64,000 bases of DNA from the IMG/VR virus record IMGVR_UViG_3300025616_000004, positions 33,231-97,230 of that record. The stretch is one strand, 5' to 3'. This stretch comes from a virus. Positions 15,073 through 63,738 of the stretch are shown here, in pieces (the stretch's first letter is position 1; every line of letters starts with the position of its first letter). Under the pieces are notes generated by a model. That model saw only the letters and a list, made by a program, of their open reading frames with translations. It was not told where the DNA came from and made no database searches. The position numbers and the translations under genes were made by a program.

Positions 15073-15083
15073 TATAATATAAA
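15073..15083 (-). promoter_or_regulatory. Late-type promoter element TTTATATTATA
   Basis: Exact 11-bp match, 38 bp upstream of the start at 15035. Confidence 0.65.
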
Positions 15084-15085
15084 AT

Positions 15086-17194
15086 CTAAGACAGTATTAC
15101 ATTATTCTTTATTTTTATATAATTATTCCAGCCATAATTGAACAAGACTTCATTCTCATCGAAATATTTCCAAAGAATATCTCCGTCTCTAGTTAATGTA
15201 TCTTCAAGGTAGAGTTTTCCATCTATAACACTTGAAGGAATAACTTGACTAACTACCACGTCAGTATTTCCTCCCGAAAAGGTAGAACTGACTACTGTAT
15301 AATATCCATCATTTCCAGTAGACTCTTGAACTTGTATTGTATCGTTAACTAATATATGTTGTGTTTTATCCCCAGCTATTCTAAAAGTATAGTTAGGAAT
15401 GTCTACCCAGATTAATTCGTAGTATTCTATATCCTTAAATACGGGTAGTGATCCAGAAGAGGTTCCTCTAAATCCGACTACTTCATAGGAAAATTCTCCC
15501 TCTAATATAGAGTCCCCAATATTATACATAGTGCTAGGAGTCCAAGCTAAACCACTAGCTATCTTAGACTTACATACCCATATCAATCCGTTATCCTCAG
15601 TAAAGTCTTGGAGTACTGTCGTAAAACTAGGTATTATAGTACCTGAATATTTCTGAATAGCTATACATTCAAACATAAACTCTATAGACGGATCAACTAT
15701 TGAAGTACTTCTAACTAGATCCCCAAGTTTATAACTCCTCGAAGCATACCAAGTAGGTGGATTTTTTCCGTATCTCGGGATACACTGCCACACTAATCCA
15801 TTATCTACTATTAAACTTCCATCAGTATACACCCAAGAAGGTTCTAAAGTATCAGAGTTTCTAATAAAATCATAAGCCATGTACACCTTACTACCTGACA
15901 AAGGAGAAGCTATAAAATCTCCTAACCTATACTTTGTGCTATTTATCCTATTGGTAGCGTGTACGCTTATTCTAGTTCTCTTAACGTATGAAAAATCATC
16001 TATATTCTTTTCAAGAAGTTCTAAATCTATGGAAGGTCTCATGGTCTTTTCATAGGATTCAGTAATACTTGCCACGTCAGCTTCAACATCTATAATATTC
16101 ACAATACTATTTGAGTTTCTTTTTATATCAAAGTCTATCTCTAACTTGAAATGGACGGGTTCCTTTATTATAGGGATAGGAACTCCCATGGCTCTCATGT
16201 TATCTAGTTGACTCACAATGCTAGTTTCTTCGGATGAAGTCATGATAGTATAATCATTCCTTACATAACTAAGATCGACTATGGCAGGTGTGAAATCCCT
16301 ACTATTTGTATCTGAAAAGTTATATCCTAAGTTTTTGAATTCTTTTAAGTAGTCATTTCTAGCTCTTACGAGAACTTGAGTTTCATGACATAAAGGTGCT
16401 TTTATTCTTATACTGTCATTAGGTTCTGGAGTTATGTAAGATAGTACTTTATTTACGGAGGTTATAGTCCCCTTATCAATAATAAGATCGGTTATTTTAT
16501 AAGATACATTTGATAATTCTATATACTCCAGAGTTAAGATGTCGGTAGGTTTATACTTATATACACCCTCTTGGATATAAGCTACATCTACTGCCCCTAA
16601 TGGATTAGATATAGTAAGATACATGTCATTCCACAGGTCTTTAGAGTTTATGGATGACGGAATAACTATATCATTTAATTTTAATCTCACATAGTCACTG
16701 ACATTAGAAGATATAAATCTAAATATTTTTAATCCTTCTGTATCTATTGTAATACTTTCGCTCATTAAGTTGCCGAGATAGACGCTAATAGTGGAAGAAA
16801 CCCCTTTGTTAAGTTGAGTACCTTCTACCGTGACTATTTCATAGTTCTTAACAGTACCTATACTTGTATATGCAGGAATTAGTCCAGTCATATTTGGAGT
16901 TATTACTAACTGAACTACTTCATTTTTACCCCTAGATACTGAATATCCTAAGTTCTGTGCTATCCCTATTAAACTTGTACGATTCTGTGCATACGATAAA
17001 TATACTTCTCTTCTAGCCACCGTGACTAAATAGCTTATGAAACTCCCAAACGTAGAAAGAAGTCTAATAAATATGCTACCTGTTGAGCTGGCATAGAAAT
17101 CTTTCCACTTACCACTATCCGTCTGTGAGTTGAAGTAATTTGTTAAACTTAACTGTACTTGGCTAAATGATAAACTATCTAATTTTAAAGCCAT
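15086..17194 (-). CDS. Baseplate wedge protein, gp6/J-like, with carbohydrate-binding-like modules
   Basis: The protein has 702 aa. The first 400 residues fit the J/gp6 wedge family (DFYASSTGSIFIRLLSTFGS, VTVARREVYLSYAQNRTSL, GYSVSRGKNEVVQLVI). Residues from about 430 to 600 hold repeated modules of the chitin-binding (CBM5/12) type: WYASRSYKLGDLVRS, YSGTIIPSF, WTPSTMYNIGDSI and GTSSGSLPVF. A small beta domain follows near residue 640 (GNDGYYTVVSSTF) that recurs in the sheath and two other virion proteins. The basic wedge function is to hold the tail fibres and drive contraction. The added modules may bind host cell-wall glycans early in adsorption. Confidence 0.82.
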   Translation of the reverse strand: MALKLDSLSFSQVQLSLTNYFNSQTDSGKWKDFYASSTGSIFIRLLSTFGSFISYLVTVARREVYLSYAQNRTSLIGIAQNLGYSVSRGKNEVVQLVITPNMTGLIPAYTSIGTVKNYEIVTVEGTQLNKGVSSTISVYLGNLMSESITIDTEGLKIFRFISSNVSDYVRLKLNDIVIPSSINSKDLWNDMYLTISNPLGAVDVAYIQEGVYKYKPTDILTLEYIELSNVSYKITDLIIDKGTITSVNKVLSYITPEPNDSIRIKAPLCHETQVLVRARNDYLKEFKNLGYNFSDTNSRDFTPAIVDLSYVRNDYTIMTSSEETSIVSQLDNMRAMGVPIPIIKEPVHFKLEIDFDIKRNSNSIVNIIDVEADVASITESYEKTMRPSIDLELLEKNIDDFSYVKRTRISVHATNRINSTKYRLGDFIASPLSGSKVYMAYDFIRNSDTLEPSWVYTDGSLIVDNGLVWQCIPRYGKNPPTWYASRSYKLGDLVRSTSIVDPSIEFMFECIAIQKYSGTIIPSFTTVLQDFTEDNGLIWVCKSKIASGLAWTPSTMYNIGDSILEGEFSYEVVGFRGTSSGSLPVFKDIEYYELIWVDIPNYTFRIAGDKTQHILVNDTIQVQESTGNDGYYTVVSSTFSGGNTDVVVSQVIPSSVIDGKLYLEDTLTRDGDILWKYFDENEVLFNYGWNNYIKIKNNVILS

Positions 17195-17230
17195 TATAAA
17201 ACACCCTATATATTCTACATTCTACCTATA

Positions 17231-17241
17231 TAGAATATAAA
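17231..17241 (-). promoter_or_regulatory. Late-type promoter element, variant TTTATATTCTA
   Basis: One base off the 11-bp consensus, 36 bp upstream of the start at 17194. Confidence 0.5.
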
Positions 17242-17256
17242 ATAAGTGTTTAGCAA

Positions 17257-19104
17257 CTAAATATCCATTTCGAATTTCCAATTACCACTATTATGTATTG
17301 AATAGATACTATTTTCTTCCAATATCTGATCTGCTGTTTTGGTATCTGAATATGACTTTGGAAACATTTTTTTAAGTTTATGTTTCTGATATTTCTCTCT
17401 ACTAACTACTTCCCTACGTTCATTGTAATATTTTAATTGAACTCCAGTATCCCCTATAAATCTAAAACCATTTTTAAAATATACTGAATCTTTATAATTA
17501 GGTGTCCAGTCTCGATCACAATACGTTATTATTTTAGTATAACCTTGCATTTTATATTCATGGATACTACTTTTTAATAATCTTGAAAATCCTCCTACAC
17601 ATGATGAGTTTAAGAGTGTGGCGAACCTAGCTATCTCAATGATTTCCCTACACTTCCTGAAAGATATACAACTTACTAATTTAGAACCCTCGTATAATCC
17701 TAAAGCCAAGTTACTACTTACATCCCCGTGAAGATGATTATTGTTAAAGAAGTCTCTACGTTCTCTAATGCTTACTTCTTTAACTTTAAGTTTACGAGCA
17801 TGATACCTACACTCACATCTCCCCAATGTTGATCTGATCATGCTCTTTATTATATCTTCGTTGTCATGTTCCCATATATGATATAACTTAATCTCTTTCG
17901 CTAGTGAAGACTCCGTTTTTACTTTGTGGTAAGAGCTAGATACCTTAAACTTAGAACTATGGTAGTAACTCCCGTTATACTCAAATCCAATGCCCAACTT
18001 AGGTATTAAAATATCTATCTCTAGGGGATATATAGTCCCCCTATCATTAACTACAGTGTCAATATTTAAAGAATTTATAAATTCTTGTATTTTACTCTGA
18101 GATTCTCCCCTCATCTGAGGAAAACATATTGGACATTTTATATCAGCTTTCATGGCACTTTTAAAAACAGAACCACATACCCTATGCTTTACGCTATATT
18201 TAACCCATTTTAGTTTATTACCTACGTTGTAGAATACGCCTTTATAGCTATCTAATAACGTGTACTCGGATTCCTTCGAATTAAATCTATTTTTAATACT
18301 CTCTAATACGGACTCTTTCTTAAATTTTCTTACTTTACTGGCTATCTTAGAAGATTGCATAGCGTATGGATATCCATATTTAAATATATTTGTACTTCTC
18401 AATTTACTCATGGATTCTTCTGTTTGGAGAGCATGAATACAGCCATATTTCTCTAAATTAGTTTTTCTTATCCTACTTTTTATCAATTCGGATTGGGTAG
18501 CTGATGAAAATCCATACTTATCTAGATTAGTTTTCTTTATTTTATTCTTAATATCTTCTGATTGGAACGGGTTGATTACTCCGTACCTTTCTAAATTAGT
18601 AGACTCTTTTTTAGCTACAGATTCTTTAGACTGAACAGCATACTCAACCCCATATTTATGAATGCAAGTAGCCTTTATCTTATCTTTGACTTTTTCAGAT
18701 TTGGTAGCTGATGAAAATCCATACCTTTCGAGATTAGTATCCTTTATTTTGTCTCTAATCTCTTCGGCTTGTGAGGCATAGTCGGTTCCATATTTCTCTC
18801 TATTGGTAGTTATGCCTTTATCTTTAATCTCTTTAGATTGTAACACATATGGAACTCCATATTTAAGTATATTTGTTTTTACTCTCTGTTCTTTACTCTC
18901 TTCTGCGTTTCTTAAGGAAAACCCAAATTTTAAGAAATACTTTTTAAAAGTTCCCTCACTAATGCCCAGTAACCCTTCCAATACCTTTAATGATTTTCCA
19001 TCTAAGTATTCTAGATATGCAGGTTTCCAACATTCTATACTATCTTTGAGATAAATAAGACCTGTCTTTGATATTATAAAGTTAGTTCCAGTTTTCTTCA
19101 ACAT
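17257..19104 (-). CDS. Vsr-like homing endonuclease with 8 DNA-binding repeats and a GNAT-like C-terminal domain
   Basis: The protein has 616 aa, starting at ATG 19102-19104 behind GGAG. The order is: N-terminal HTH-like region; eight tandem 23-aa repeats of the type TNLEKYGxxxxxQSExIKxK (residues 70-250), likely DNA-contacting modules; a zinc motif (RVCGSVFKS...CPICF); a Vsr/PD-(D/E)XK nuclease core (EIDILIPKLGIGFEYNGSYYH ... LYHIWEHD), as in the I-Bth0305I EDxHD family; and a 190-aa C-terminal domain with VGGFSRLLKSSI, GNAT-like. It sits between two baseplate genes and has its own sigma70 promoter (19131-19159). The mobile-gene call is strong; the GNAT reading is tentative. Confidence 0.85.
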   Translation of the reverse strand: MLKKTGTNFIISKTGLIYLKDSIECWKPAYLEYLDGKSLKVLEGLLGISEGTFKKYFLKFGFSLRNAEESKEQRVKTNILKYGVPYVLQSKEIKDKGITTNREKYGTDYASQAEEIRDKIKDTNLERYGFSSATKSEKVKDKIKATCIHKYGVEYAVQSKESVAKKESTNLERYGVINPFQSEDIKNKIKKTNLDKYGFSSATQSELIKSRIRKTNLEKYGCIHALQTEESMSKLRSTNIFKYGYPYAMQSSKIASKVRKFKKESVLESIKNRFNSKESEYTLLDSYKGVFYNVGNKLKWVKYSVKHRVCGSVFKSAMKADIKCPICFPQMRGESQSKIQEFINSLNIDTVVNDRGTIYPLEIDILIPKLGIGFEYNGSYYHSSKFKVSSSYHKVKTESSLAKEIKLYHIWEHDNEDIIKSMIRSTLGRCECRYHARKLKVKEVSIRERRDFFNNNHLHGDVSSNLALGLYEGSKLVSCISFRKCREIIEIARFATLLNSSCVGGFSRLLKSSIHEYKMQGYTKIITYCDRDWTPNYKDSVYFKNGFRFIGDTGVQLKYYNERREVVSREKYQKHKLKKMFPKSYSDTKTADQILEENSIYSIHNSGNWKFEMDI

Positions 19105-19130
19105 AATTCTCCATACTATTAATAATACAT

Positions 19131-19159
19131 AGTATAACATACTAATAAAGAAAAGTCAA
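19131..19159 (-). promoter_or_regulatory. Host-type promoter of the homing endonuclease gene
   Basis: TTGACT, 17 bp, TATACT on the minus strand, TATGT before the -10, 27 bp upstream of ATG 19104. Confidence 0.82.
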
Positions 19160-26630: not shown

Positions 26631-27176
26631 TTAAACGGTAAAATCCTCCCTAGGATATATATAAACAACATTGAAATTTACATTCAACTCTTTTAATGTA
26701 ATATTGGAACCCATTGTTACTTGACAATCCCCTTCTGGGTATACTTCATAACTCGTCATTAGTGTTATCTTCTTATTTGATGATAGTTTAAATACCGTTA
26801 GCTTCGTGGTATTTTCATCTAAGGTTCTTATAGAAGTTCCCGTGTAAAATATGTCATTTATCCAGTCTTTTATAGATTTCTCGACAATACAATTCTCGTC
26901 ATCATATAAAGATACTGTTAATGTAGGTAACTCTATCCCAATGGGAATATTAAAGTTTCCGTACATGGGTAACTTTACTTGCATAGACTTCATTAATGGG
27001 ATCTTCTCTTGTACTTGATAACAAGGTATGACATTCCCAAGAGCAACATTCCCCGTAAATGGTGATTTTATCCTATCAATAGTTACTAGATAATTAAACC
27101 CTAAACCCCAAGCTACGGAACCTATATCAGATATAGATTGGCCTTTGAGATTATTAGATGTAAAACCGTTTGCCAA
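26631..27176 (-). CDS. Tail-tube-like structural protein
   Basis: The protein has 181 aa and is beta-rich, with GLGFNYLVTIDRIKSP, PTLTVSLYDDENCIVEKSIKDWI and LKELNVNFNVVYIYPRED. The order of strand, 'tltvsl.D', a single helix containing W and a final strand resembles the tube fold shared by gp19 and its baseplate homologues (gp48/gp54). Because a separate tube gene is at 27917, this is likely a baseplate tube adaptor. It has a late element upstream (27206-27216). Fold-level inference. Confidence 0.55.
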   Translation of the reverse strand: MANGFTSNNLKGQSISDIGSVAWGLGFNYLVTIDRIKSPFTGNVALGNVIPCYQVQEKIPLMKSMQVKLPMYGNFNIPIGIELPTLTVSLYDDENCIVEKSIKDWINDIFYTGTSIRTLDENTTKLTVFKLSSNKKITLMTSYEVYPEGDCQVTMGSNITLKELNVNFNVVYIYPREDFTV

Positions 27177-27205: not shown

Positions 27206-27216
27206 ATATAATATAA
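27206..27216 (-). promoter_or_regulatory. Late-type promoter element TTTATATTATA
   Basis: Exact match, 30 bp upstream of the start at 27176. Confidence 0.7.
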
Positions 27217-27231
27217 AATATCCTATACTCG

Positions 27232-28451: not shown

Positions 28452-30242
28452 CTAAGTTGTAATCGTAAATCCAGTTCTTGTTATAATGACGGATAAGGTT
28501 ATAAATTCAGATGTTTTTGTGGGTTGTACATACAAGAATACATTTAATTTATTATTATCTATATCCTCAGCCGTATTATTACTCTCGTCACATACCACAG
28601 TATAAGCATAGACTCCTTTTCTAGATTTTATACCATCCATGTAAGACTCTATTCCAGATCTGACAAGAAGTCTTGTCAGAGTATCATTAAACTCGAATAG
28701 GAAATCTTCTAGGAATACAGAAACTGCTGGTTCTACCGTGACAAGCATTAGTCTTACATTCAATCTATCTAATGCAGAAGGTCTAGATGATAATGTTTTC
28801 TGACCCCATATTGCAATACCCCTTCCATGTAGGAATTTAATTGGGTTTATTCCATTATCATATAATAAGTCAAGTTCTCCCTCTGAGAATCTTCTTTTTA
28901 CGTCTAGTACGTTAAGCATGCCTCTTCTAGTACCTGCTGGAGCATACCATATTTCGTAATTAGAAGCCGTTTCTGCTATAGCTGCTGCTGCATATCCGTC
29001 TGGAGATACGAATATTTTTCTTGAATTAAACCTATCCTGTATCTGAAGATTTGGAGTATATAAAGCTGAATAAGAACTATTTAAGTTTAAATCAGTCTTT
29101 CTATATGCCACTATATCTGTCATATAAGTAGAACTATTTTCTGCTGAATACGGAGTGGATAAACATGATACACAATCTTTTCTACTTTGACATAGAGCAT
29201 CCATAGCCCTTTGATAAGCTACTGTAGTCCAGCCCCCGTCCATTATAATAGTTAGAGGTATTTCATTTTTATTTTGTAGTTTAGATAGTGCTGTTTGCAT
29301 ATGACTATCTGATATCGTTCCACCATCCAAAGCTCCTAGTAGAGATAATGGAGTTGTTTGTTCAATTAATGCTGTATCAGAAGGCACGTCTACGTTATCA
29401 ATAATGTTAATATAGTTAGAAGAAGTTACTATATCCTCTACGTAAATATTTTGACCGTAGCCGTCTTTAGCCCCAACTACTCTTGAACAAATAAATGTTT
29501 CTAGTAAGTCACCTGTTGATTTTTTAAGTACATTTATTTGGAAAGCTCCTTCTTCTTTTACGATGTCTGGGCTTACTGCATAGGTAAATAGGGTTATCTG
29601 AATGTCATTAGCCCATGAACCTTGGTTAGATCCTGTTATCAATAACGCATCTGTAACCTCAAATTCATAATTAGTGGGAGTGACTATTGAATTCCTATTA
29701 ACATGTCCATCTACAGTATCATCCAGTACTTCTTCATTAACTATTATGTCTGTATTTGGGGTATTAAAAGTAGCACTTGCCACAGTGTACACACCGTCGT
29801 TTGCAGTAGATCCTTCTATTTTTATAGAATCCCCTATTTTAAATTTTGCAGAAACGTCTCCCGCAATCGAGAAAAATCCAGTACCTGCTCCTGTATTTAC
29901 GTATGAAATATTCCCCAGATTTACAGATGTTAGACTCGTATTAGAAACTGTTCCCATGATAGCTCCACCATAGGTAGAACCATTGTCAGCTCTAACTACC
30001 CATAACTTATTTGTCTTAGATAGATAAGCCAATGCTGAATAGAATGCCATGTCATACCCTACTTCGACCCTCTCATTAGGAGTAAGATACTTTAGTAAAT
30101 CAGTATCTGATGTCATGAAGAGAGGCTTACCTACTTCTCCTTTAGGAGAACGGACTACAATGCCTCCGTAAACATCTCCCGCAGAAGACGGAACTCTTGT
30201 GGATATATCTATTTCTTTTGTAAAAATGTTTGGAGCTGTCAT
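28452..30242 (-). CDS. Tail sheath protein, gp18-like
   Basis: The protein has 596 aa. The N-terminus APNIFTKEIDISTRVPSSAG is the sheath handshake strand. The C-terminal region shows the conserved core: YAAAAIAETASNYEIWYAPAGTRRG, LYDNGINPIKFLHGRGIAIWGQKTL, LDRLNVRLMLVTVEPAVSVF and a final strand. An inserted small beta domain occurs near residues 115-165 (GDSIKIEGSTANDGVYTVAS), also found in three other virion proteins here. The sheath contracts to drive the tube into the cell. High-confidence family. Confidence 0.93.
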   Translation of the reverse strand: MTAPNIFTKEIDISTRVPSSAGDVYGGIVVRSPKGEVGKPLFMTSDTDLLKYLTPNERVEVGYDMAFYSALAYLSKTNKLWVVRADNGSTYGGAIMGTVSNTSLTSVNLGNISYVNTGAGTGFFSIAGDVSAKFKIGDSIKIEGSTANDGVYTVASATFNTPNTDIIVNEEVLDDTVDGHVNRNSIVTPTNYEFEVTDALLITGSNQGSWANDIQITLFTYAVSPDIVKEEGAFQINVLKKSTGDLLETFICSRVVGAKDGYGQNIYVEDIVTSSNYINIIDNVDVPSDTALIEQTTPLSLLGALDGGTISDSHMQTALSKLQNKNEIPLTIIMDGGWTTVAYQRAMDALCQSRKDCVSCLSTPYSAENSSTYMTDIVAYRKTDLNLNSSYSALYTPNLQIQDRFNSRKIFVSPDGYAAAAIAETASNYEIWYAPAGTRRGMLNVLDVKRRFSEGELDLLYDNGINPIKFLHGRGIAIWGQKTLSSRPSALDRLNVRLMLVTVEPAVSVFLEDFLFEFNDTLTRLLVRSGIESYMDGIKSRKGVYAYTVVCDESNNTAEDIDNNKLNVFLYVQPTKTSEFITLSVIITRTGFTITT

Positions 30243-30453: not shown

Positions 30454-30464
30454 TATAATATAAA
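30454..30464 (-). promoter_or_regulatory. Late-type promoter element TTTATATTATA
   Basis: Exact match, 31 bp upstream of the 52-aa gene; this promoter would also feed sheath and tube. Confidence 0.7.
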
Positions 30465-46642: not shown

Positions 46643-46648
46643 AAACAT

Positions 46649-46677: not shown

Positions 46678-46686
46678 CACTCAAAT

Positions 46687-50343: not shown

Positions 50344-51018
50344 CTAATCTAAAAGATCACTCATCCCTACATCGAGAAAGTCTAATCTTGACTCATGCAT
50401 GCTACTAAACTCTTCTTTGTCGTGGAGGTTATACTTGGAATTGTATGCGTTTTCCATAATAGCCGAGCCTACATTTAAGAAGTCATCCATGACAGATTCA
50501 TTTTGGTCTTCGTCTTCATAATTATCTTCGTACTCTTCTTCAGACTCTTCGCCTTCTTCAGACTCATTGTCCTCTCTATACTCGTCTTCACCCTCTTCGT
50601 ACTCGTCTTCACCCTCTTCGTACTCGTCTTCGTCGCCATAGTCTAAATCTTCTACGAATTGAGACAAAGTATCTAAGTCTATTTCATTCTCAACTACCAT
50701 TTTTAGAAAGCCTGCGATAGAGTTTTGAGTTTCTTCGTCCACAGCGTTAAAATTAGATTTTAATACATGTAGACCATGTATGTCATCAGCTTCTCCGTCA
50801 CCGTCAAGGTCAATGCCTTCCTCATCTTCGTCTTCATACTCTTCTGTATCCTCATTATCCGAGTCTGCGTAGTCGTCTAAGTCTTCATCGTCTTCTTTGT
50901 ATCTATCTTCATCTTCTACTACGTCTTCGATATCAAGTTTTTCTTCTTTTTTAGACTTCTCGGGTTTGTAATTTCCAACAGATGCTCTAAGTTCTTCTAA
51001 TAATCTCTTGTTGTCCAT
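50344..51018 (-). CDS. Highly acidic prohead core protein (gp67-like)
   Basis: The start is ATG 51016-51018 (MDNKRLLEELRASVG) with GGAGAGG. More than a third of the 224 residues are D or E, with tandem EDEYEEG units encoded by a 21-nt repeat (50577-50640). An EF-hand-like loop DLDGDGEADDIH lies near residue 80. T4 gp67 is a small, very acidic core protein in the same place (after portal). The C-terminus ends DVGMSDLLD. It probably helps core assembly; calcium binding is possible. Confidence 0.6.
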   Translation of the reverse strand: MDNKRLLEELRASVGNYKPEKSKKEEKLDIEDVVEDEDRYKEDDEDLDDYADSDNEDTEEYEDEDEEGIDLDGDGEADDIHGLHVLKSNFNAVDEETQNSIAGFLKMVVENEIDLDTLSQFVEDLDYGDEDEYEEGEDEYEEGEDEYREDNESEEGEESEEEYEDNYEDEDQNESVMDDFLNVGSAIMENAYNSKYNLHDKEEFSSMHESRLDFLDVGMSDLLD

Positions 51019-51078: not shown

Positions 51079-51089
51079 TATAATATAAA
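51079..51089 (-). promoter_or_regulatory. Late-type promoter element TTTATATTATA
   Basis: Exact match, 61 bp upstream of the acidic core gene. Confidence 0.7.
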
Positions 51090-51230: not shown

Positions 51231-53006
51231 CTAGAATACGTCCCCAATACTTACCTCAGCCCCTCCTTTTGGGGCTGTTGCTGCTGGTTGAGTAGGTGTT
51301 TGTGGAGTTACTGGTGTTGTAGGTTGTTTAGGTGTAGTCATAGGAGGGGTTGACGGTGGAGTTGCTGACCCAGTTGATAAATTACTTCCCGATACTGAAG
51401 TTCCTCCTACTGGTTTTCTTGTTGTGGTCGGAGGGGGTGCTTCTCCCCCCTTAGGCATGTTAAATGATTTTCCTTTATCCTTATTATAAAGTTTTAAAGC
51501 TCCTTCTATGTGAGGGAATGATGACGTAAACATGTTAAAGATACCTATTATCTTATCATTATCCACTTCTACTTGGAATTGATCGGATGCAGATACTTCC
51601 CCTAGTAGGTTAAAACAATCCCTTAGAGCTGTCATTGTGGCTACCATTACATCTATATCATCTAGTATATCTAGGTTTGTAACAGACTTAAACTTAACTT
51701 TAATATTGTTCTTAATAGGGAAGTGATTTCCAGTATGTATTAAATGTTTGTATATTAAATTCTTAATTCCTTCCCCAAAGCTAGTTTGAATTCCTACTAA
51801 TTTTCTAGCATATGCGGAATAAACTTTTAACATGTCAGTTTTTCCTAAAAGTTGATCTCCGTACGATAAATAGAACGAAGGAACTCCCATAGACATGGCT
51901 ATTCCTTTTCGTATATCATTTATTCTATTATTCAAGTCTGAATTATCATAATCAAACCTTATCTGGGTGATAGCTCCTTTACCGTCAGCATGATTTGGGA
52001 TTACTTTTATCCTTGAAGCTGATTGCAGTGAGTCGGCTACTGACATATTGTCGGTATAAGTTGCTTCTGTATTTATATCATTCAAATAGTTTTCATACTT
52101 ATCTATAATATCTGTAATATATTGGTTATCTGTATCCGCTGGTATATCAACGGAGACTAAAATTGGAGCCATAACTCTCTTGAGTTCCATGGCAAGACTT
52201 GTAGTCTCCAATGTTTGTAATTTTTTAATTGAAGTAAGTACTGGGTATATTACAGACTTACCCATTCGAATACTCTTAGGTAAATTCTGAATATCGTCTG
52301 GAAGTTCTACTTTAACTCTTATCTTACTACCATCTAATACGAAGTGAGATAACTCATGACAGTCCAATAATTCAAATTTACCGATTTTAGGGTTATGTCT
52401 CATGAAACTACTGAGTTCCCTGCCTTTATAAAGTCCCATACAGTTCTCAGTATCACAATCATCTATTATTTCAACAATTCCTTGACCTTGTACCACCTTA
52501 GTCCTTAAAAAATATTCTCCTTCTAGCATCCAATCAGGTACTATATCTCTTGCGAGTCCAGCTATGTCATGTTTCTTGCAAAATTTATCTATTTCTTTCT
52601 GAACTCTTTCATCTATTCTTGAATCTTTTCCAGAGTCTCCACAATACTCTACAGATAGGAAGCTATCATCAGATATGCTACTAAAAGCGTCATTAACTAA
52701 ATTAGCTAAGAGAGCTTGAACAAGTTCACTCTCGTTAGTTTTTCTTAACTGTTGGATTAGGGTTCCTCTATTCTCTAAAGTAGTAGATAATTGTCTTAAA
52801 ATTTGACCTAAAGCATTCTGTCTTGAAAAAGTACTGCCATTACTCCCCCACCCTCCCCCAGTACCATAAGCATTTGTTATATCAAAAACTTTAGTACTAT
52901 CTGCAGGGATGTCGTAGTGTGACGTCATTCCTTTAAAAAATGACATGGTGTTATTATATCCAGCTTGATTTAAACTAGAGTCGAAACCTCCGCCAGTAAA
53001 ACTCAT
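51231..53006 (-). CDS. Portal protein, gp20-like
   Basis: The protein has 591 aa and is encoded right after the large terminase. Central conserved segments include FCKKHDIAGLARDIVPDWMLEG, TTSLAMELKRVMAPILVSVD and RKGIAMSMGVPSFYLSYGDQLLG, which match the gp20-type portal core (wing, stem and clip region). The C-terminal 80 residues are Pro/Thr/Gly-rich and look disordered (PPTTTRKPVGGTSVSG...). It forms the dodecameric channel and binds terminase. It starts at an ATG behind GGAGG, close to a late element. Confidence 0.9.
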   Translation of the reverse strand: MSFTGGGFDSSLNQAGYNNTMSFFKGMTSHYDIPADSTKVFDITNAYGTGGGWGSNGSTFSRQNALGQILRQLSTTLENRGTLIQQLRKTNESELVQALLANLVNDAFSSISDDSFLSVEYCGDSGKDSRIDERVQKEIDKFCKKHDIAGLARDIVPDWMLEGEYFLRTKVVQGQGIVEIIDDCDTENCMGLYKGRELSSFMRHNPKIGKFELLDCHELSHFVLDGSKIRVKVELPDDIQNLPKSIRMGKSVIYPVLTSIKKLQTLETTSLAMELKRVMAPILVSVDIPADTDNQYITDIIDKYENYLNDINTEATYTDNMSVADSLQSASRIKVIPNHADGKGAITQIRFDYDNSDLNNRINDIRKGIAMSMGVPSFYLSYGDQLLGKTDMLKVYSAYARKLVGIQTSFGEGIKNLIYKHLIHTGNHFPIKNNIKVKFKSVTNLDILDDIDVMVATMTALRDCFNLLGEVSASDQFQVEVDNDKIIGIFNMFTSSFPHIEGALKLYNKDKGKSFNMPKGGEAPPPTTTRKPVGGTSVSGSNLSTGSATPPSTPPMTTPKQPTTPVTPQTPTQPAATAPKGGAEVSIGDVF

Positions 53007-53031: not shown

Positions 53032-53042
53032 TATAATATAAA
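53032..53042 (-). promoter_or_regulatory. Late-type promoter element TTTATATTATA
   Basis: Exact match, 26 bp upstream of the portal gene. Confidence 0.7.
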
Positions 53043-53043: not shown

Positions 53044-56000
53044 TTAGAAGCCTAAAGTCTTATTAAAACCTTCTCTCTTTTGTTTATTTTGAGCTTCTTT
53101 CATCAAATTTCCTATATGTCCTTGTATCTGAGGAGGACCTTCATTTTTACTTACTATTCCTTCATAAACATTCTGAAGATTCATGTACTCACAAGAATTT
53201 AAGCAAGACCAAACACCTCCCGTAACCGAGTCACTTAAATCTTTTGAATTGTGTACAAATATTCCATTATCCAACGCAAAATTATTCGTGGATGGGACAG
53301 TTATATCGTAGACATCTTCGGTTACGTCTAGTTCTATTACGGATACTCTGACTACTTTATGATTATACTCTGGAAGTATGTCTAACTTACCCAACCTTAC
53401 TAAGTAGTTAGTTAACTTTTTAGGAGAAAGACCAGTAACCCTAAGTATTTCTTCTAAGGGCATGCCTCTAAGTTTTTCTGAGTTTATTTGAAAGGTACTC
53501 GAGTCTATTCTCTTAGCCCACGATTTTACATAACCTCCTGCAACATGCATAGCATGTTGATAGCTAAGGATATACTCTTTCCATGGCTCTTTTCTCTGTT
53601 TAGCTAGTTCGTCAAAATATTCTTTCTGACCATCTCTCATCGTCTGTTGTTGATATTCCCAAACTTCTGCTTTTCTAGCTTTCCCTTCACTACTTTTCCA
53701 GTATATTTCATTTAGTTTTTTACCTGCAATCTTATTCCTAGCTATGATATTTTCATTAGTTAATCTCATATTTAAAATGTCTTGTCTATATTTATCAGTT
53801 TTCATGTACTCTTGCCTATCCAATTTAATTTTAAGTCTGTCATCTCTCCTCTTTGAGTTATCTGGATTAGCCCAATAGTTCTTTTTAAAAGAAGCTACTC
53901 TCTTATCCGTGTGGAGTCTCCCTAGTCCACTCAGAAAGGCATGTCTTCTAGTGTGATCTGATATGCTCATTATTTCTAAATTTTCTGGAGAATTATCACT
54001 TGGTTTGAAATTCCTATGATGTACTACTTCGTCCTTAGCTAAGGTATGCTGATAGTGATAGGATGCTACTAATCTATGGATAAAATTGTATCTTCCTGTT
54101 TTATTATTCTTAATTTGAAAATACCTACCTACGCCTCCACTCCTATATTTGTAATTTTGCTCTTTAATGTATATAGGCATTAGAGAATCCTTAGGTTCTA
54201 AGTATTGAGCTTGTTTATAAGATCCATCCCTCATCATAAATAAATGCTCAGGGGTGCATCTTATAGGATCTCTCTCATCATCTAGGCAGACTTCTACTAG
54301 ACAGGAGACTTCTTTTGTCTTATGAGCGTTATATGCCTTGGCTGGAACGATAGTTCCATCAGGCAGGCATCCATATACCCAAAACTCATTAGAAGTTCCT
54401 AAATCAGATAACTCTTTAAAACTCTTCGAGGTTCCATCTAATAGTTTTATTTGAGTATCTCCCGTGAAACAGCTGTTTGCGAGGTGATCTACTTTTTTAG
54501 TGAGCTCTCTAAGACCCAAAAGTTCTTTTATTAGAAACTCATTTTTAACTCCAATTATTTTATTATTATTTACCAACTCTTTTAAAGCGTAATATGGATC
54601 TTTAGTTCTATCTACTGATAAATATGCTGTAGTAGTTCCGTGCAATCTTAAGAATTGTCTCATTACATCTCCTTGGAACATATCTGAGCTTACTACCTTT
54701 ATAGGGTATCCTAACTTCTTTAATAAAAATATAAAGTCCATTACTTTGTATATGTTAATCTCTTCCCCTTTACGGGCTTCTATAGCTACTGCAAAATCAA
54801 CATAAAACATTCTTTCTTTTCTTTTAAAGCTTGGCATGTTTATATCAGTTTTATAAAGATCAAAGTCTTCTAGAGTACTGTATACCGCAGATATTCCAAA
54901 TTTATCCTTTTTTGTCGCAGCATCTAAGTGTATAAATCTATAACATTGTGGATTTAGGGGTTTCTTGAAGTAATCTAGGCTTGTAACATAATTTTCTAAC
55001 TTATCTAATGGATCATTAAAAGACATGCTTATGACATCACTCTTAAATCTATTAGGGTTTACGAATAGACTTACTAACTGCTTCTTAGATTTGAATAGGG
55101 ATATGTCAGCTCTTATTCTTCTTCCTGCAATATCCCTTACAGCTCTGGATATGTTTAAATCAAATTCCCTATAGTATTCCATAGGTACTTCTATTGCCAA
55201 AGCCTTTATATCCTCAGGTACTTTATCCTCTTCACGAATAATGCATGGTTCTTTTTTATCGTCTCCTAAGAATACCTTAAATTTATCCCCTAAGTAGTCC
55301 CCCTTGACTTCCCACAGACTTATGTTGTCGAAATATATACCATACTGATTACTTTGCATCTCTTCTATGGCAGTATTTAGATAGTCTTGTTCGTCTATTG
55401 GGGAACTTACCATCCATAGAACTCCTGGTATGAACTCCCCTAAGTGTATAAATCTTGATTTCTTTCTTCCAGTAAATCCCATGTGTAAATCTTTTACTTT
55501 TGCTATGGCATCTTTACCTTGAAAAAAGGATACCTCATCCATGAGACCGCAGAAAGTCAATTTTCCTATCAAGTGGTCCATTTTTGAACCTGTATGTACT
55601 GTTATGTTGTCTCCTATATGGATTCCCTCCTCAGATACTGAGGATCTAGCTTTTGGAGTTGCTTTTACATCCTTGAAAAATGGAGAAGTGTTTATCATGC
55701 CCAACAGTTTTCCAAAAGCTACTGAAGTCCCTTGAGCATGGGTAGGGGCTATTAATGCAAACGAAAATTTATCGGTTCCCTTTGTTATGGAGTAAAATTC
55801 ATATGGATTTTTAAGGCATAGTAGCTTATACATCTCATAAACCATAGATATTATAGCACATGTTGTGTTATGAGTTACTGTAAAATCTCCTAATAGGTAT
55901 AAATGATTACAGTCCAGAGTAAACCCATAGTAATCCCCCTCCCCTAGAAAATTTAATGTAAAGTCGGTTTCTAATAGGCCGTCTCTAGTTGATATACTGT

Positions 56001-57015
56001 CCATCCTAAAGTCTGAGGGTACTCTGGAGAAATCTCCAGATATGTCTACGTAGTACCCTGTAGATGTAAAATAAGTATCCTTTTCCAATTTAGCTGAAAA
56101 GCCTAGGGATCTACTCAAATATACTATATCTTCTGCTAATACTAAGTTTTTAACTGTAACTGATAGAATATCTTGATCTGGATATCTGAGATCTAATTCT
56201 GAGGAATCTAAGATACCCGCTAAAAGTTTCAATCTATTCTCTTCTGAATTGACTAAGTACTCTTTAGGTATTGAACTATCCCCTGATGTTACTGATTTAT
56301 ATATATGATAGGATGTTGGAAACTCTTCTGGATTATACATAAGAGTGTCCTCTGAGGATTCCGATCCTAACCAACGACCGTAAGTATATGCACCTATAGT
56401 TAAGGGCTCTTCTGAATAGTGGACAGCTTTTCTGTACAATTTATTGACTGTTTTAAAGTTATCGTCTTTTTCTAAGTACTCTGATACCGAGATATTGGTT
56501 ATACTGCCATGATATCTATCTTTTAAACTAAGAATATGAGATTTATTGCAAGTAAAGGAATCCCCATTATCAGAAGGGACGACTTCGTACATATCCTCTC
56601 GACCTCTGGCTAATGAAAGAACTCTTCTAGGTGTGGAGTCGTCTCCCATTAATAAGTCCCCTATTTTAACACTCTCTACTCTCTTGATAGAGCCGTCGAA
56701 CATTAAAATACGAGTTCCTTTTCCTAAGCACTTACCCACCCCTATTGCGGTGGATAGGGCTATCTCATTATACATATTTAAGCAAGGGTGGGGATGTATC
56801 TGTTTTAATAAATCTATCCACAGGGGATAGATATTATCACCCAAGGAGTTTCCTAAATAGTATGGGTCTCTTATAAAAGTTTCTATATCCACGGGCTTGG
56901 TCTTGTAACAATTAGTTGTCAACTCGTAGATGACTTCTCCCATCTCGTATACAGATAGGTCAGGGTCGCTTGTTAGTATTTCGCTTACATAGTCAAGAGT
57001 ATCATGATAGCTCAT
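53044..57015 (-). CDS. Large terminase subunit (gp17-like) with two inteins
   Basis: The frame is continuous from 57015 (ATG; GTG at 57024 is an upstream alternative). After removal of inteins of 288 and 408 aa the protein has about 630 aa, close to T4 gp17. Residue numbers below count from 57024. ATPase: Walker A GVGK (95-98) joined to TT (387) after splicing, Walker B LTFCGLMDE (D496, E497). Nuclease: RFIHLDAATKKDKFG (D701), VVSSDMFQGD (D781) and the final motif SKDLSDSVTGG (D1262), which becomes contiguous with HLANS after splicing. It powers DNA packaging. The adjacent upstream gene is the small subunit. The enzyme is inactive until both inteins leave. Confidence 0.95.
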   Translation of the reverse strand: MSYHDTLDYVSEILTSDPDLSVYEMGEVIYELTTNCYKTKPVDIETFIRDPYYLGNSLGDNIYPLWIDLLKQIHPHPCLNMYNEIALSTAIGVGKCLGKGTRILMFDGSIKRVESVKIGDLLMGDDSTPRRVLSLARGREDMYEVVPSDNGDSFTCNKSHILSLKDRYHGSITNISVSEYLEKDDNFKTVNKLYRKAVHYSEEPLTIGAYTYGRWLGSESSEDTLMYNPEEFPTSYHIYKSVTSGDSSIPKEYLVNSEENRLKLLAGILDSSELDLRYPDQDILSVTVKNLVLAEDIVYLSRSLGFSAKLEKDTYFTSTGYYVDISGDFSRVPSDFRMDSISTRDGLLETDFTLNFLGEGDYYGFTLDCNHLYLLGDFTVTHNTTCAIISMVYEMYKLLCLKNPYEFYSITKGTDKFSFALIAPTHAQGTSVAFGKLLGMINTSPFFKDVKATPKARSSVSEEGIHIGDNITVHTGSKMDHLIGKLTFCGLMDEVSFFQGKDAIAKVKDLHMGFTGRKKSRFIHLGEFIPGVLWMVSSPIDEQDYLNTAIEEMQSNQYGIYFDNISLWEVKGDYLGDKFKVFLGDDKKEPCIIREEDKVPEDIKALAIEVPMEYYREFDLNISRAVRDIAGRRIRADISLFKSKKQLVSLFVNPNRFKSDVISMSFNDPLDKLENYVTSLDYFKKPLNPQCYRFIHLDAATKKDKFGISAVYSTLEDFDLYKTDINMPSFKRKERMFYVDFAVAIEARKGEEINIYKVMDFIFLLKKLGYPIKVVSSDMFQGDVMRQFLRLHGTTTAYLSVDRTKDPYYALKELVNNNKIIGVKNEFLIKELLGLRELTKKVDHLANSCFTGDTQIKLLDGTSKSFKELSDLGTSNEFWVYGCLPDGTIVPAKAYNAHKTKEVSCLVEVCLDDERDPIRCTPEHLFMMRDGSYKQAQYLEPKDSLMPIYIKEQNYKYRSGGVGRYFQIKNNKTGRYNFIHRLVASYHYQHTLAKDEVVHHRNFKPSDNSPENLEIMSISDHTRRHAFLSGLGRLHTDKRVASFKKNYWANPDNSKRRDDRLKIKLDRQEYMKTDKYRQDILNMRLTNENIIARNKIAGKKLNEIYWKSSEGKARKAEVWEYQQQTMRDGQKEYFDELAKQRKEPWKEYILSYQHAMHVAGGYVKSWAKRIDSSTFQINSEKLRGMPLEEILRVTGLSPKKLTNYLVRLGKLDILPEYNHKVVRVSVIELDVTEDVYDITVPSTNNFALDNGIFVHNSKDLSDSVTGGVWSCLNSCEYMNLQNVYEGIVSKNEGPPQIQGHIGNLMKEAQNKQKREGFNKTLGF
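53248..54471 (-). mobile_element. Intein 2 of the large terminase, with HNH endonuclease
   Basis: Starts at Cys852 (CFTGDTQIKLLDGTSKSFKE, block A) and ends GIFVHN (N1259), followed by Ser. Block B is RCTPEHLFMM; block F is VYDITVPSTNNFALDNG. An HNH core lies at about 998-1028: DEVVHHRNFKPSDNSPENLE. It interrupts the last catalytic motif of the nuclease domain. All splicing residues appear intact and the endonuclease looks active. Confidence 0.92.
55867..56730 (-). mobile_element. Intein 1 of the large terminase, in the Walker A lysine, with degenerate LAGLIDADG
   Basis: Starts at Cys99 (CLGKGTRILMFDGSIKRVES) directly after GVGK and ends LLGDFTVTHN (N386), followed by Thr. Block B is TCNKSHILSL. 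The two endonuclease motifs are YTYGRWLGSESSE and LKLLAGILDSSE; both lost the catalytic Asp (DG replaced by SE). Splicing residues are intact; the nuclease is probably dead. Confidence 0.92.
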
Positions 57016-57481
57016 TATCTCCACTTACTCCGTCTTCTTCTCGTTTAATTTGAGTCTGGGCTTCTTTAGCTCTAGCTCTTATTTCGTTAACCACTCTACG
57101 AATTCTAGTATCTTGAGGCATGCCTCCCTGAGTTTCTTCTTTTTGTTTTTCAAAATAAGTTCTAAGTAATTCATTCTTTGTCGCAGACTCATAAAGTTTA
57201 GCGTAAAAAGACAAGGATACATTCTTGTCTTTTAACATTATCTCATAAAACTTAAAAAAATCTTTTACGTCTAGTCCGAATATAAATTCATCTGAGAATG
57301 CAAGTTTCTCTAATTTCTTTATTATCCTATTACACTTCTTAAGATGTTTAAACTCCCCAGCTACCAAATCCATGAACTTATCTGGAGATATACTCTGGGA
57401 AGTTAATTTTCTTTTCCTATCAGATGATATTTGTACTTGATTTATAAGTATTTTTCCATCTTCTTCTGGAGCATTTGACAT
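57002..57481 (-). CDS. Small terminase subunit (position-based)
   Basis: The start is ATG 57479-57481 with GGGAGG five bases upstream; a TTG at 57493 is rejected. The 159-aa protein is helical, with an HTH-like middle (SPDKFMDLVAGEFKHLKKCN) and a helical oligomerisation part (FFKFYEIMLKDKNVSLSFYA), ending acidic. It overlaps the large terminase gene by 14 nt. Size, helical content and gene order fit gp16-type small subunits, which recognise viral DNA. Confidence 0.7.
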   Translation of the reverse strand: MSNAPEEDGKILINQVQISSDRKRKLTSQSISPDKFMDLVAGEFKHLKKCNRIIKKLEKLAFSDEFIFGLDVKDFFKFYEIMLKDKNVSLSFYAKLYESATKNELLRTYFEKQKEETQGGMPQDTRIRRVVNEIRARAKEAQTQIKREEDGVSGDNELS

Positions 57482-57503: not shown

Positions 57504-57514
57504 TATAATATAAA
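57504..57514 (-). promoter_or_regulatory. Late-type promoter element TTTATATTATA
   Basis: Exact match, 23 bp upstream of the small terminase gene. Confidence 0.7.
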
Positions 57515-57525: not shown

Positions 57526-57873
57526 TCATATTTCGAAAGTAAATGAGTCATCGTCGATCTGGTCTAACATGGCTTTGTAGATCTCCAAATCTTTTTGTTT
57601 TGTTATAACCTTATCTGGATTTCTGGTCAATTTAGTATATATGTCATCAGCGTTCGTAAATAATTTTAAAAGTCTGTCTGATTTAGGAATACTTATTTTC
57701 TTACCACTTAGCATGAAAAATATGTAAAAGGTATCTTCTTTGTATTTTTTATAAAACTGATACAAATAAGATATGTCTATATTTAATGATTTTGATAAGT
57801 AGAATAGTACACAAGTACTTCTATTTATAGGTATATTTAGAGTAGTTGACTTGACTGTTTCCATATATTCCAT
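57526..57873 (-). CDS. Small protein coupled to the sigma factor gene, 115 aa
   Basis: The start overlaps the end of the sigma-like gene by 37 nt, with AAGAGG upstream. The protein is helical and basic (FKK-type stretch YQFYKKYKEDTFYIFFMLSG). In T4 the late coactivator gp33 has a similar size (112 aa) and works with gp55. The tight coupling to a sigma-like gene makes a coactivator role worth testing, but no sequence motif supports it directly. Confidence 0.5.
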   Translation of the reverse strand: MEYMETVKSTTLNIPINRSTCVLFYLSKSLNIDISYLYQFYKKYKEDTFYIFFMLSGKKISIPKSDRLLKLFTNADDIYTKLTRNPDKVITKQKDLEIYKAMLDQIDDDSFTFEI

Positions 57874-58550
57874 AGTAAATCCCTCTTCACTGCTTCTATC
57901 TTATGTATGTTATTAAAATCTTTATTGCTAAGCTCTTTCATATTTGAGTATACATTCAATAGGTCACAATAATACTCTACTTCATCTAACTCATTCTCAC
58001 ATTTAAGGCTAGTACAGTACTCCTCTACATTACCTAAGTCTTCATCTTCCTCATCTGAGGACTCGTCTGGAGATGAATAGGATGACCTCTGTAACTCTTC
58101 CCTATCTATGTATTCAAAATTTAAACTGATAGGGTCTGGGTGGTTCTGGAGTTTATAGTTAACCTTGGTAGTGTAGTTTCTTACTACGGCTCTTATAAAA
58201 GTGCCTAGATTTCCTTTAAGGGGATCATAATTCTTAGTAACTTTTTCATATATATCTATAAAACAATCATTTATATTATCTTCCCCGAACTGGTTTTGCC
58301 ATAAAAACTTATTAAGTAAACTTTTTACATAGGCTATTGCCTGATCGTAAAATACTTTATCATACAATTTACCTGCTTCGTAGATATCTTGTAATTTTTT
58401 ATAATTACCATAAAGTTTCGGGGTAACTCCAGTTTTTCTACTTGCCTTAGCCTTCTTTCGGGCTTCCGATCTTTTATAGGAAGCCACTGATTTTCTATAA
58501 GCTTCATTATCGAAGAGATCGGGCTCATTTCCTAATCTAATAACATTCAT
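57837..58550 (-). CDS. Sigma70-like transcription factor (probable late sigma, gp55-like)
   Basis: The protein has 237 aa. Residues about 85-135 follow sigma region 2: NINDCFIDIYEKVTKNYDPL, then KGNLGTFIRAVVRNYTTKVN. This is the core-binding and -10-reading block ('DivQevFl.l...fDp.kGsf.twl..i.rN'). A basic N-terminus (RSEARKKAKASRK) and an acidic stretch (SSDEEDEDLG) surround it. No clear region 4 is seen, as in T4 gp55, which lacks a -35 reader. It lies upstream of the terminase genes. It would redirect host RNA polymerase to the TTTATATTATA elements. Confidence 0.78.
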   Translation of the reverse strand: MNVIRLGNEPDLFDNEAYRKSVASYKRSEARKKAKASRKTGVTPKLYGNYKKLQDIYEAGKLYDKVFYDQAIAYVKSLLNKFLWQNQFGEDNINDCFIDIYEKVTKNYDPLKGNLGTFIRAVVRNYTTKVNYKLQNHPDPISLNFEYIDREELQRSSYSSPDESSDEEDEDLGNVEEYCTSLKCENELDEVEYYCDLLNVYSNMKELSNKDFNNIHKIEAVKRDLLWNIWKQSSQLL

Positions 58551-60376: not shown

Positions 60377-60534
60377 CCTAAACCCTCTCTCAGATATCTT
60401 TTGAATTTGGAGGTAATCAGACTTAATCTTCTCGTTTCCAACGCCTCTAGTGAGACGGCTTCTCGTACTTGGCACTGACTACTTGACTTGACACCCATTC
60501 GGGGAATGTTCTCCCTTAAATCAGGGAGTGTTGA

Positions 60535-60597
60535 ACTAACATTTATACTACGATAAATATTATTACAACTATTATGGTTATTATTATTAGTATTACT
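60535..60597. repeat. 63-bp direct repeat, copy B
   Basis: Identical to 61100-61162 over 63 bp. Contains the small palindrome ATTTAT-cgtagt-ATAAAT and TTA-rich tract. It lies inside the gene-free leader of the primase gene, 565 bp from copy A. Confidence 0.92.
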
Positions 60598-60960
60598 AGT
60601 TTTCAGCTTCATATTCATATTCATATTAATTTCAAATTTATAACTTGAGGGTAGCGTTATGCCCCATCTTACTATGTACTTGCACCGATAGTAATTCCTT
60701 CTCAGGGGACACATTCTCAAGAGTCGCCTCGTCATATCCCCACCTATGTGGTATTCTTAGGAGGATTTTTCAGTCTTTTTTAAGGACTAGGGTCTCCGTC
60801 CAGTAGTCGTGAGTCAAGTCCATTGGAGAAGGGGACTATTCTGACTGACGAGCCTTTATAGGAGTGGGAATTTAAAAGCATCCCTCGCTAAGTTGATTTC
60901 ACCCTGCTTTGCGTTAACTTGAATTACTTTAAGAAGTTCGTCAACAATTTAAAGTAACCT
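60598..60960 (-). ncRNA. Candidate structured RNA or long 5' leader
   Basis: This stretch has no supportable ORF, is richer in G+C than its surroundings, and starts just after a strong promoter (predicted start near 60960). Visible helices on the minus strand: GTTACTTTAA pairing with TTAAAGTAAT; AAGTT with AACTT; GGGAT with ATTCC; AGTCC with GGACT; a long-range CTCGTCA with TGACGAG; and GGAG with CTCC around AGTC/GACT. A small hairpin CTCCCT-gattta-AGGGAG follows at about 60510-60528. It resembles a large regulatory RNA or a decayed intron. The 121-aa frame across it looks non-coding. Confidence 0.45.
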
Positions 60961-60966
60961 ATATTC

Positions 60967-60995
60967 AGTATAGCATACTATTTACCCATTGTCAA
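60967..60995 (-). promoter_or_regulatory. Strong sigma70 promoter for the structured leader and primase
   Basis: TTGACA, 17 bp with TATGC, TATACT on the minus strand, about 590 bp upstream of the primase start. Confidence 0.85.
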
Positions 60996-62227: not shown

Positions 62228-62461
62228 TTAATAATCAAAACTAGTGTCTTTATCTACAAGCATTCTTTTTACTTCTTGGAACAAGTCTCTGCTCCTAATG
62301 ACATCTAATGCATCCTCTAGAGTAATTGTCCTAGGTTCATGTTTAGTCCTTACCCAGTCTATAAGCTCTTGTTTGTTTATAGGACTTCCTGCGATATTGA
62401 TAGTATCCTTACTCTCAAGAAGTTGGGTACATAGATCTTTTATAGCTTGAATTTTTTTCAT
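62228..62461 (-). CDS. Small helical late protein, 77 aa, possible internal head protein
   Basis: MKKIQAIKDLCTQLLESKDT is an amphipathic helix ending LLE-S, which fits a T4-type capsid-targeting peptide with an LxE cut site. The rest is helical (LEDALDVIRSRDLFQEVKRM). A late element lies at 62490-62500. Function inferred only. Confidence 0.5.
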   Translation of the reverse strand: MKKIQAIKDLCTQLLESKDTINIAGSPINKQELIDWVRTKHEPRTITLEDALDVIRSRDLFQEVKRMLVDKDTSFDY

Positions 62462-62489: not shown

Positions 62490-62500
62490 TATAATATAAA
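62490..62500 (-). promoter_or_regulatory. Late-type promoter element TTTATATTATA
   Basis: Exact match, 29 bp upstream of the start at 62461. Confidence 0.7.
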
Positions 62501-62503
62501 AAA

Positions 62504-62674
62504 TTACTCTCCTCCATCGTCTCCATCCTCTGAATCATCGTCATCACTATAACTATACATGGGGAATAGACTTCTCCCTAAACTCTTCTCCCTATTAGTT
62601 TTCTTTCTAGCCTTTTTCTTCTTCTTTTTTTCACCTAGGAATGTTTCACAATATCTATCTACCAGCTCACTCAT
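62504..62674 (-). CDS. Small basic-acidic protein, 56 aa
   Basis: ATG at 62672-62674 overlaps the TGA of the upstream nuclease-like gene, with AAGGAG upstream; TAA stop at 62504-62506. The chain is a Lys/Arg-rich middle (GEKKKKKKARKKTNREK) followed by an Asp/Glu/Gly-rich end (SDDDDSEDGDDGGE). Charge-split proteins of this kind can bind nucleic acid and self-regulate. Function unknown. Confidence 0.6.
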   Translation of the reverse strand: MSELVDRYCETFLGEKKKKKKARKKTNREKSLGRSLFPMYSYSDDDDSEDGDDGGE

Positions 62675-63456
62675 ATATCAAACTCCTTCTTATATCTTAT
62701 TGTCTTACTCACAATCTTATCAAACTTTTTATTATGATAACTACTACACTCTATACATTTGTTCACAATACTATCTTCTACTAAATCATATACTGTCTGA
62801 GTATACCTTTTTCTATTCTCAGATACTTCCTTAAACTCTTGAACTCTCTTCTCAAGTAATCTAGTTTTGTATACTAAGTTACTTTTACAAGAAGGACATC
62901 TTTTAGCATAGGATATCTTGAGTCTTCTTTCTAATTTACTCACTACTTCATCAAGAGTTACCTTACCTATAATATAAGACATTAGAGCATCTTTAGAATT
63001 AAACTTACAACTTAACTTTTTACTCGACAGTAACTCTTGAAAATCTTCTTTTTTAAGGTTTCTCATAAGACTGTTAAGTCTCATCTTCTTATCAAGTCCA
63101 GAAGCTTCTCGAACTACCCTAAAGTTGACCAAATCATCTACAATGATAACCCCGACTCGTGTCAATTTATACTTATTTAGTATTTCCCAAGTTTCCTTCT
63201 CATGTTTACGGTGTATTATCAAGTGAACGTAGTCAAAAAATTTTAAATATGATTTTAATTGACTTATAAGTCTACCAGTAGTATCTTGACTCCCTTTAAT
63301 CTCATAACCATGGAAGATCCCCTCACGAAATAATGCAAAGTCTACTCGACTTGTTCCGTTGATATCATATTCGTTAAGGAATATACCCTCGTTGAAGAAT
63401 TCCTTGTTTTCTAATATGTACTTGAAGCGAATATCTACATCATTTATCTTAACCAT
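62671..63456 (-). CDS. PD-(D/E)XK-like (sce7726-type) protein with zinc ribbon, 261 aa
   Basis: RVDFALFREGIFHGYEIKGS followed by GRLISQLKSYLKFFDYVHLI matches the sce7726-type restriction-endonuclease-like core (D-x-n-ExK, then QL..Y). A helical middle and a C-terminal zinc ribbon (KRCPSCKSNLVYK and later NKCIECSSYHNKKF) follow. It may be a nuclease for DNA processing or host degradation. It is in a tightly coupled small operon with the basic 84-aa gene upstream. Confidence 0.68.
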   Translation of the reverse strand: MVKINDVDIRFKYILENKEFFNEGIFLNEYDINGTSRVDFALFREGIFHGYEIKGSQDTTGRLISQLKSYLKFFDYVHLIIHRKHEKETWEILNKYKLTRVGVIIVDDLVNFRVVREASGLDKKMRLNSLMRNLKKEDFQELLSSKKLSCKFNSKDALMSYIIGKVTLDEVVSKLERRLKISYAKRCPSCKSNLVYKTRLLEKRVQEFKEVSENRKRYTQTVYDLVEDSIVNKCIECSSYHNKKFDKIVSKTIRYKKEFDI

Positions 63457-63710
63457 CAGTCTATCTTATCTTTAGTATAGTCACTCTTAACCCTACTCTT
63501 TATTTTATCAAAGGAACTCTTACCTAGAGCGACCATGAGAGCGTCCTGAACCCCTTTTAAATAGTACTTATTCTTATCAGACCTCTTATCCCTATAATCG
63601 TAGAAAGATTTTCTATACAGACTAACAGATGCCTTATCTAAAGAATCCTTAGTAGGTTTGTTTCTAACATTAATATCTTCTAATATTTTATTCAGTTTTT
63701 CAATACTCAT
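63456..63710 (-). CDS. Small basic helical protein, 84 aa
   Basis: Start ATG 63708-63710 behind AGGAGAT; an upstream in-frame ATG at 63728 lies in the late element and is rejected. The chain is helical and basic (SLDKASVSLYRKSFYDYRDK). The TGA overlaps the next ATG. No motif recognised. Confidence 0.55.
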   Translation of the reverse strand: MSIEKLNKILEDINVRNKPTKDSLDKASVSLYRKSFYDYRDKRSDKNKYYLKGVQDALMVALGKSSFDKIKSRVKSDYTKDKID

Positions 63711-63727
63711 ACTAGATCTCCTATACA

Positions 63728-63738
63728 TAAAATATAAA
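63728..63738 (-). promoter_or_regulatory. Late-type promoter element, variant TTTATATTTTA, fused to a terminator
   Basis: One base off the consensus, 18 bp upstream of the start at 63710; overlaps the T-run of the terminator at 63736-63766. Confidence 0.6.

Follow-up and report, generated by a model that had tools for sequence, protein, structure and literature searches.

A -10-only DNA element as a probable late promoter in an uncultured lineage of T4-like phages

In phage T4, the gp55 late promoter consists of TATAAATA or a close variant at positions -13 to -6. The T4 late promoters depend on gp55 and carry no -35 element (PMC2988020). T4-like phages can shift this late consensus, as in Aeh1, whose late promoters read CTAAATA (PMC1524935). 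In the staphylococcal Kayvirus vB_SauM-515A1 (Herelleviridae), promoters derived from RNA-seq place late genes behind the box TGTTATATTA without a -35 element, and transcription starts 6 bp past the box at a G-enriched position (PMC7698491). The early genes of this phage are transcribed from extended -10 sigma-70 promoters with a 17-bp spacer, and the phage encodes a sigma factor but no RNA polymerase (PMC7698491).

The window analysed here, a stretch of 64,000 bp, corresponds to positions 33,231 to 97,230 of a 97,230-bp IMG/VR virus contig. Its G+C content is about 34%, almost all genes lie on the minus strand, and this coding strand is A-rich. The major capsid protein matched Pfam Gp23 (E = 6e-20) and the portal protein matched Pfam Portal_T4 (E = 8e-9); tail sheath, tail tube, baseplate wedge, baseplate hub, head maturation protease, and tail-fibre genes are also encoded. 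A megablast search with a 12-kb stretch matched none of 50,697 phage records, and the nearest isolate capsid proteins, those of the Rhizobium phages of the Kleczkowskaviridae, were 37% identical. By these gene and protein comparisons, the virus is a divergent T4-type myovirus without a close isolate. Its relatives were a near-identical 170-kb contig (G001) and two contigs of 158 kb (G003) and 190 kb (G004) with a capsid identity of 74%; G001 and G004 were read over the whole contig. Among the tail genes, a 1,397-amino-acid tail-fibre ORF (10144-14337, minus strand) has a conserved phage fibre N terminus, past which it carries many VYKSxDNGxTWDxG repeats that appear BNR-like by eye.

The original prediction described an 11-bp sequence, TTTATATTATA, with 11 exact and four one-base-variant copies, all on the coding strand. 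Every one of these copies was found on the minus strand, at the coordinates given except for one that begins at 27207 and not at 27206. When all sites with at most one mismatch were counted, the window contained 29, of which 11 were exact and 18 carried one mismatch, compared with a chance expectation of 13.9 +/- 3.9; a count of 29 was reached in none of 100 shuffles. The restriction to the coding strand held for the exact copies (11 of 11) but not for the one-mismatch sites, 12 of which were on the coding strand and 6 on the opposite strand. The one-mismatch copies missing from the earlier list lie mostly inside genes, as only intergenic variants had been listed. Over the 97,230-bp contig, exact TTTATATTATA occurred 12 times on the coding strand and never on the opposite strand, and 11 of the 12 copies were intergenic although intergenic DNA makes up 8% of the contig. 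The coding-to-opposite counts of exact copies were 22:1 in G001, 22:2 in G003, and 22:2 in G004, and TTTATATTATA was the top intergenic 11-mer in both G001 and G004. Strand bias alone is weak evidence because nearly all genes share one strand; the element itself is T-rich, whereas the coding strand is A-rich. No description of TTTATATTATA as a phage promoter was found in the papers searched.

With mechanically called gene starts, the element ended 17 to 65 bp before the start codon, compared with the 18 to 66 bp claimed. A number of the copies, which lie on the minus strand, precede virion genes. In the tail region, exact copies at 15073-15083, 27207-27217, and 30454-30464 precede a phrog_48 tail gene (14379-15035), a tail-tube-like gene (26631-27176), and a small ORF (30265-30423) followed by the tail sheath gene (28452-30242), respectively, and the variant TTTATATTCTA at 17231-17241 precedes the baseplate wedge gene (15086-17194). 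In the head region, exact copies are located at 48222-48232 before the major capsid gene (46741-48156), at 51079-51089 before a gene for an acidic protein (50344-51018) and the head maturation protease gene (48238-49632), and at 53032-53042 before the portal gene (51231-53006); the copies before the capsid and portal genes are kept in G004. A further exact copy at 57504-57514 precedes 57002-57481, a probable small terminase gene by position, and the intein-bearing ORF 53044-57024. This second ORF, the large terminase by position (minus strand), apparently contains two inteins, one of the Hom_end_hint/Hom_end type at about residues 99 to 390 and one of the Intein_splicing/HNH_3 type at about residues 860 to 1260.

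The description of the element as lying upstream of structural genes does not apply to all copies. An exact copy at 41150-41160 precedes an endonuclease-like ORF (40343), and several copies precede genes of no assigned function: exact ones at 31958-31968 (gene 31450-31896), 34706-34716 (33741-34676), and 62490-62500 (62228-62461), and copies of the variant TTTATATTTTA at 40328-40338 (39650-40297), 42129-42139 (41193-42071), and 63728-63738 (63456-63710). All of these copies before genes of no assigned function, except the one at 63728, are kept in G004, and one exact copy had no clear gene nearby. At 34706, 42129, 63728, and 27207 on the minus strand, a terminator-like hairpin runs straight into the T-run of the element, so that a single T-tract may serve as both terminator and promoter. 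An enrichment of such fusions was rejected; clear cases exist, but they were not more frequent than at other intergenic T-runs. In line with the proposal for the replication genes, the replication block (window positions 1 to about 14,300) contained zero intergenic copies, and G001 carried none between 52.5 and 84.6 kb.

The 11-mer proved to be only a part of the element. A weight matrix was seeded with the exact copies, iterated, and learned separately in G001 and G004, and both lineages yielded the consensus TTTATATTWTAWnTAGR. Hits above the threshold were distributed 36:0 between the coding and antisense strands in G001 and 34:4 in G004. Each matrix scans its own training genome, which makes the core partly circular; no such circularity affects the antisense count, the flank, or the ortholog comparison. 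The TAG at +13, which played no part in choosing the exact copies, was present in 10 of 21 copies in G001 and 16 of 21 in G004, where about 2% would be expected. The upstream columns all remained at or below about 0.6 bit, consistent with the earlier statement that no -35 partner is visible, and the element does not conform to the host sigma-70 pattern of TTGACA at 17 bp from TATAAT. G001 and G004 share 86 reciprocal-best ortholog pairs; the element was upstream of 18 and 20 of these genes, respectively, and of both orthologs in 14 pairs (hypergeometric P = 1.9e-8). Among the 14 are the pairs for the capsid protein (74% identity), the portal protein (52%), and a tail protein (57%), and the spacing between element and gene is often unequal within a kept pair. 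Selection appears to maintain the element before the same genes in both genomes.

A second promoter class was exposed by intergenic word counts, in which TTGACT and TATGCTATACT mark sigma-70 promoters with an extended -10 element. Their consensus is TTGACA-17-TATGnTATAmT, which provides a -35 signal in the same genome. In the window, the extended -10 elements begin at 4923, 9298, 19131, 43074, 43772, 44345, 45760, 46649, and 60967. They are situated in the replication block (4923-4933 and 9298-9308, minus strand), among or before endonuclease-like ORFs that lie amid structural genes, and in front of the operon 60475-57526. The last of these, at 60967-60995 on the minus strand, heads the operon that extends from a Toprim gene to a candidate sigma factor gene; it reads TTGACA-17-TATACT with an extended -10 element in the window and in G001, and TTGACA-17-TATAAT, also with an extended -10 element, in G004. 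Gene type largely separates the two promoter classes across the genome. Many homing-endonuclease-like ORFs, recognized by eye, are interspersed with the structural genes (42814-46684, 17257-19140, 32495-33751, 35442-36614, and 40343-41119, minus strand), and several of them are preceded not by the late element but by a sigma-70 extended -10 promoter of their own. Up to about 490 nucleotides (60476-60966, minus strand) separate the sigma-70 promoter from the Toprim ORF and contain one short ORF only. An Rfam search of this untranslated stretch gave no match, and the stretch may be a leader or a structured RNA.

The candidate late sigma factor is a protein of 237 amino acids (57837-58550, minus strand) with a sigma-70 region 2 at about residues 66 to 150. 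It matched PHROG 1740, annotated as RNA polymerase sigma factor (1.1e-4), and for the protein and its homologues nearly all NCBIfam matches were to sigma-70-family models (best, 2.5e-4). Pfam Sigma70_r2 matched the same residues weakly, and in a six-frame search of G001 the sigma gene gave the sole Sigma70_r2 signal (E = 0.005). Each of these matches is individually weak, with the best at 1e-4. Homologues in G003 and G004 were 57 to 59% identical. No match to region 4 was found in the protein, which agrees with a promoter that has no -35 element. An AlphaFold model of the candidate was not usable (pLDDT 41) because there were too few homologues. The end of the sigma gene is overlapped by the gene for a conserved 115-amino-acid protein (57526-57873, minus strand), just past which the late element at 57504 and then the packaging genes follow. 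This protein had no family or fold match, and its model (mean pLDDT 75) showed no significant match in the PDB. That it acts as a co-factor of the sigma factor is speculative. T4 gp33 is of similar size, with 112 amino acids (PMC2988020), but an identification of the 115-amino-acid protein as gp33 was not supported by the model.

Like the T4 system of gp55, gp33, and gp45, the element is a -10-only signal without a -35 element and stands before the head and tail genes of a phage of the gp23/gp20 type. The T4 late consensus itself is not used here, since TATAAATA showed no intergenic strand bias, and neither did CTAAATA; to this extent the original prediction that the element differs from the T4 late signal was borne out. 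An hhalign comparison of the candidate sigma factor with T4 gp55 was not significant, and a tblastn search for a gp55 homologue gave zero matches among phage records; a very distant homology is possible. There is likewise no established gp33 here. The gp45 clamp profile PF02916 had no match in G001 or G004, in a search whose control matched in one genome only and below the cut-off. In Aeh1 the consensus shift is small and a true gp55 is present, whereas the element and sigma factor described here are much further off.

There is also a likeness to Kayvirus in promoter structure. Both systems have a long -10 box with the core TTATATTA, no -35 element, structural genes downstream, and a sigma factor encoded by the phage, here a candidate, and in both the early class consists of extended -10 sigma-70 promoters with a 17-bp spacer. 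When the shared core is placed in register, the Kayvirus start falls within the conserved TAG, on its A or its G. The boxes nevertheless differ, being TGTTATATTA there and TTTATATTWTA here; TGTTATATTA was essentially absent, with one coding-strand copy in G001 and none in G004, and the core TTATATTA alone is present. The Kayvirus sigma factor belongs to PHROG 1025, and the candidate was rejected as its homologue, as no similarity was detected. Taken with these systems, the claim of a distinct late promoter class is well supported as far as a late promoter without a -35 element and unlike that of T4 is concerned, but phage sigma factors that read -10-only late promoters are known already, and Kayvirus shares TTATATTA. 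The strategy is a known one with a new signal sequence, and "distinct class" is too strong. It is a doubtful, though conceivable, idea that the sigma factor 57837-58550 and its 115-amino-acid neighbour form a split late sigma factor that arose independently of gp55/gp33 and the Kayvirus sigma factor and converged on the -10-only logic and on the TTATATTA core shared with Kayvirus.

The reading of TTTATATTWTAWnTAGR as a late promoter is well supported by its strand and position, the downstream TAG, the conservation between orthologs, and the separate sigma-70 class on early-type genes; we infer the late timing and the start sites. That the element arose by chance in an AT-rich genome is hardly credible: the G+C content of about 34% and the one-mismatch copies on both strands would suit such an origin, but the observed count was not reached by shuffling, the exact copies in the contig are all on the coding strand, TATAAATA has no comparable intergenic bias, and both the flank and the placement before orthologs are conserved. 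It is also very improbable that the element works at the RNA level, as a signal in the leader that serves translation or processing, even though it is strand specific and lies 17 to 65 nucleotides before start codons. Several copies begin within the U-tract that follows a terminator-like hairpin, a place at which transcription would have to start anew, the core of T and A only with its fixed downstream TAG has no G-rich or structured part, and the element resembles mapped -10-only late promoters.

It is unlikely that the element is a late promoter with a reader other than 57837-58550; such a reader could be a phage RNA polymerase that escaped recognition, an activator from the phage that cooperates with host sigma-70, or an alternative sigma factor of the host. 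The sigma assignment depends on weak profile matches, the contigs are possibly incomplete, and the search for a single-subunit phage RNA polymerase gave no match with a control that was also silent, all of which leave room for another reader. Against it, no multi-subunit phage RNA polymerase was found although the controls were positive, a -10-only element suits a sigma factor without region 4, and both lineages keep the sigma gene beside the packaging genes under a sigma-70 promoter. We favor, with a probability of roughly 0.78, the reading that TTTATATTWTAWnTAGR is a -10-only late promoter of this phage lineage, which would be read via the phage sigma factor 57837-58550 in a cascade on the host polymerase. 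In this cascade, host RNA polymerase with a sigma-70-type factor would use the TTGACA-17-TATGnTATAmT promoters of the replication block and the sigma operon, and the phage sigma factor would then bind the host core polymerase. The co-occurrence of the candidate and the element suggests that the factor binds it; it would recognise and melt TTATATTWTA as a substitute for a -10 box, with no -35 element needed. Transcripts would begin a few bases further on, probably with the purine of TAGR, and just before the late operons, among them those for capsid, portal, terminase, and tail.

With regard to other viruses, a scan of viral contigs with an 18-base pattern showed, among the matches listed, that contigs with multiple copies on the same strand belonged mostly to the two known lineages. 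A recurrent pattern match in other phages, which have a 35% identical sheath homologue, was rejected, since it was inside a coding sequence where it was read on the sheath strand, and the late region of phage Va2, read by eye, contained no comparable element. In G001, late elements also precede genes for an ART-PolyVal ADP-ribosyltransferase, two amidoligase-domain proteins, a patatin-like protein, and a tail-protein-like product, a placement that points to late synthesis of these products and possibly to their packaging. The ADP-ribosyltransferase (ART-PolyVal, in several stretches), amidoligase, and patatin-like genes of this contig are located at L028:13448-14929, L028:16438-18375, L029:3418-5943, and L029:6532-7455.

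Altogether, the two promoter classes allow transcription to be mapped in silico for an uncultured lineage of T4-like phages without a close isolate. The element would sort genes into late ones, for the virion, packaging, and possibly packaged enzymes, and early ones, and it flags genes of no assigned function as likely late products. The candidate adds a phage sigma factor with no detectable relation to gp55 or the Kayvirus sigma factor, apparently paired with a -10-only promoter, and thereby opens a test of what a sigma factor without a recognisable region 4 needs for initiation.
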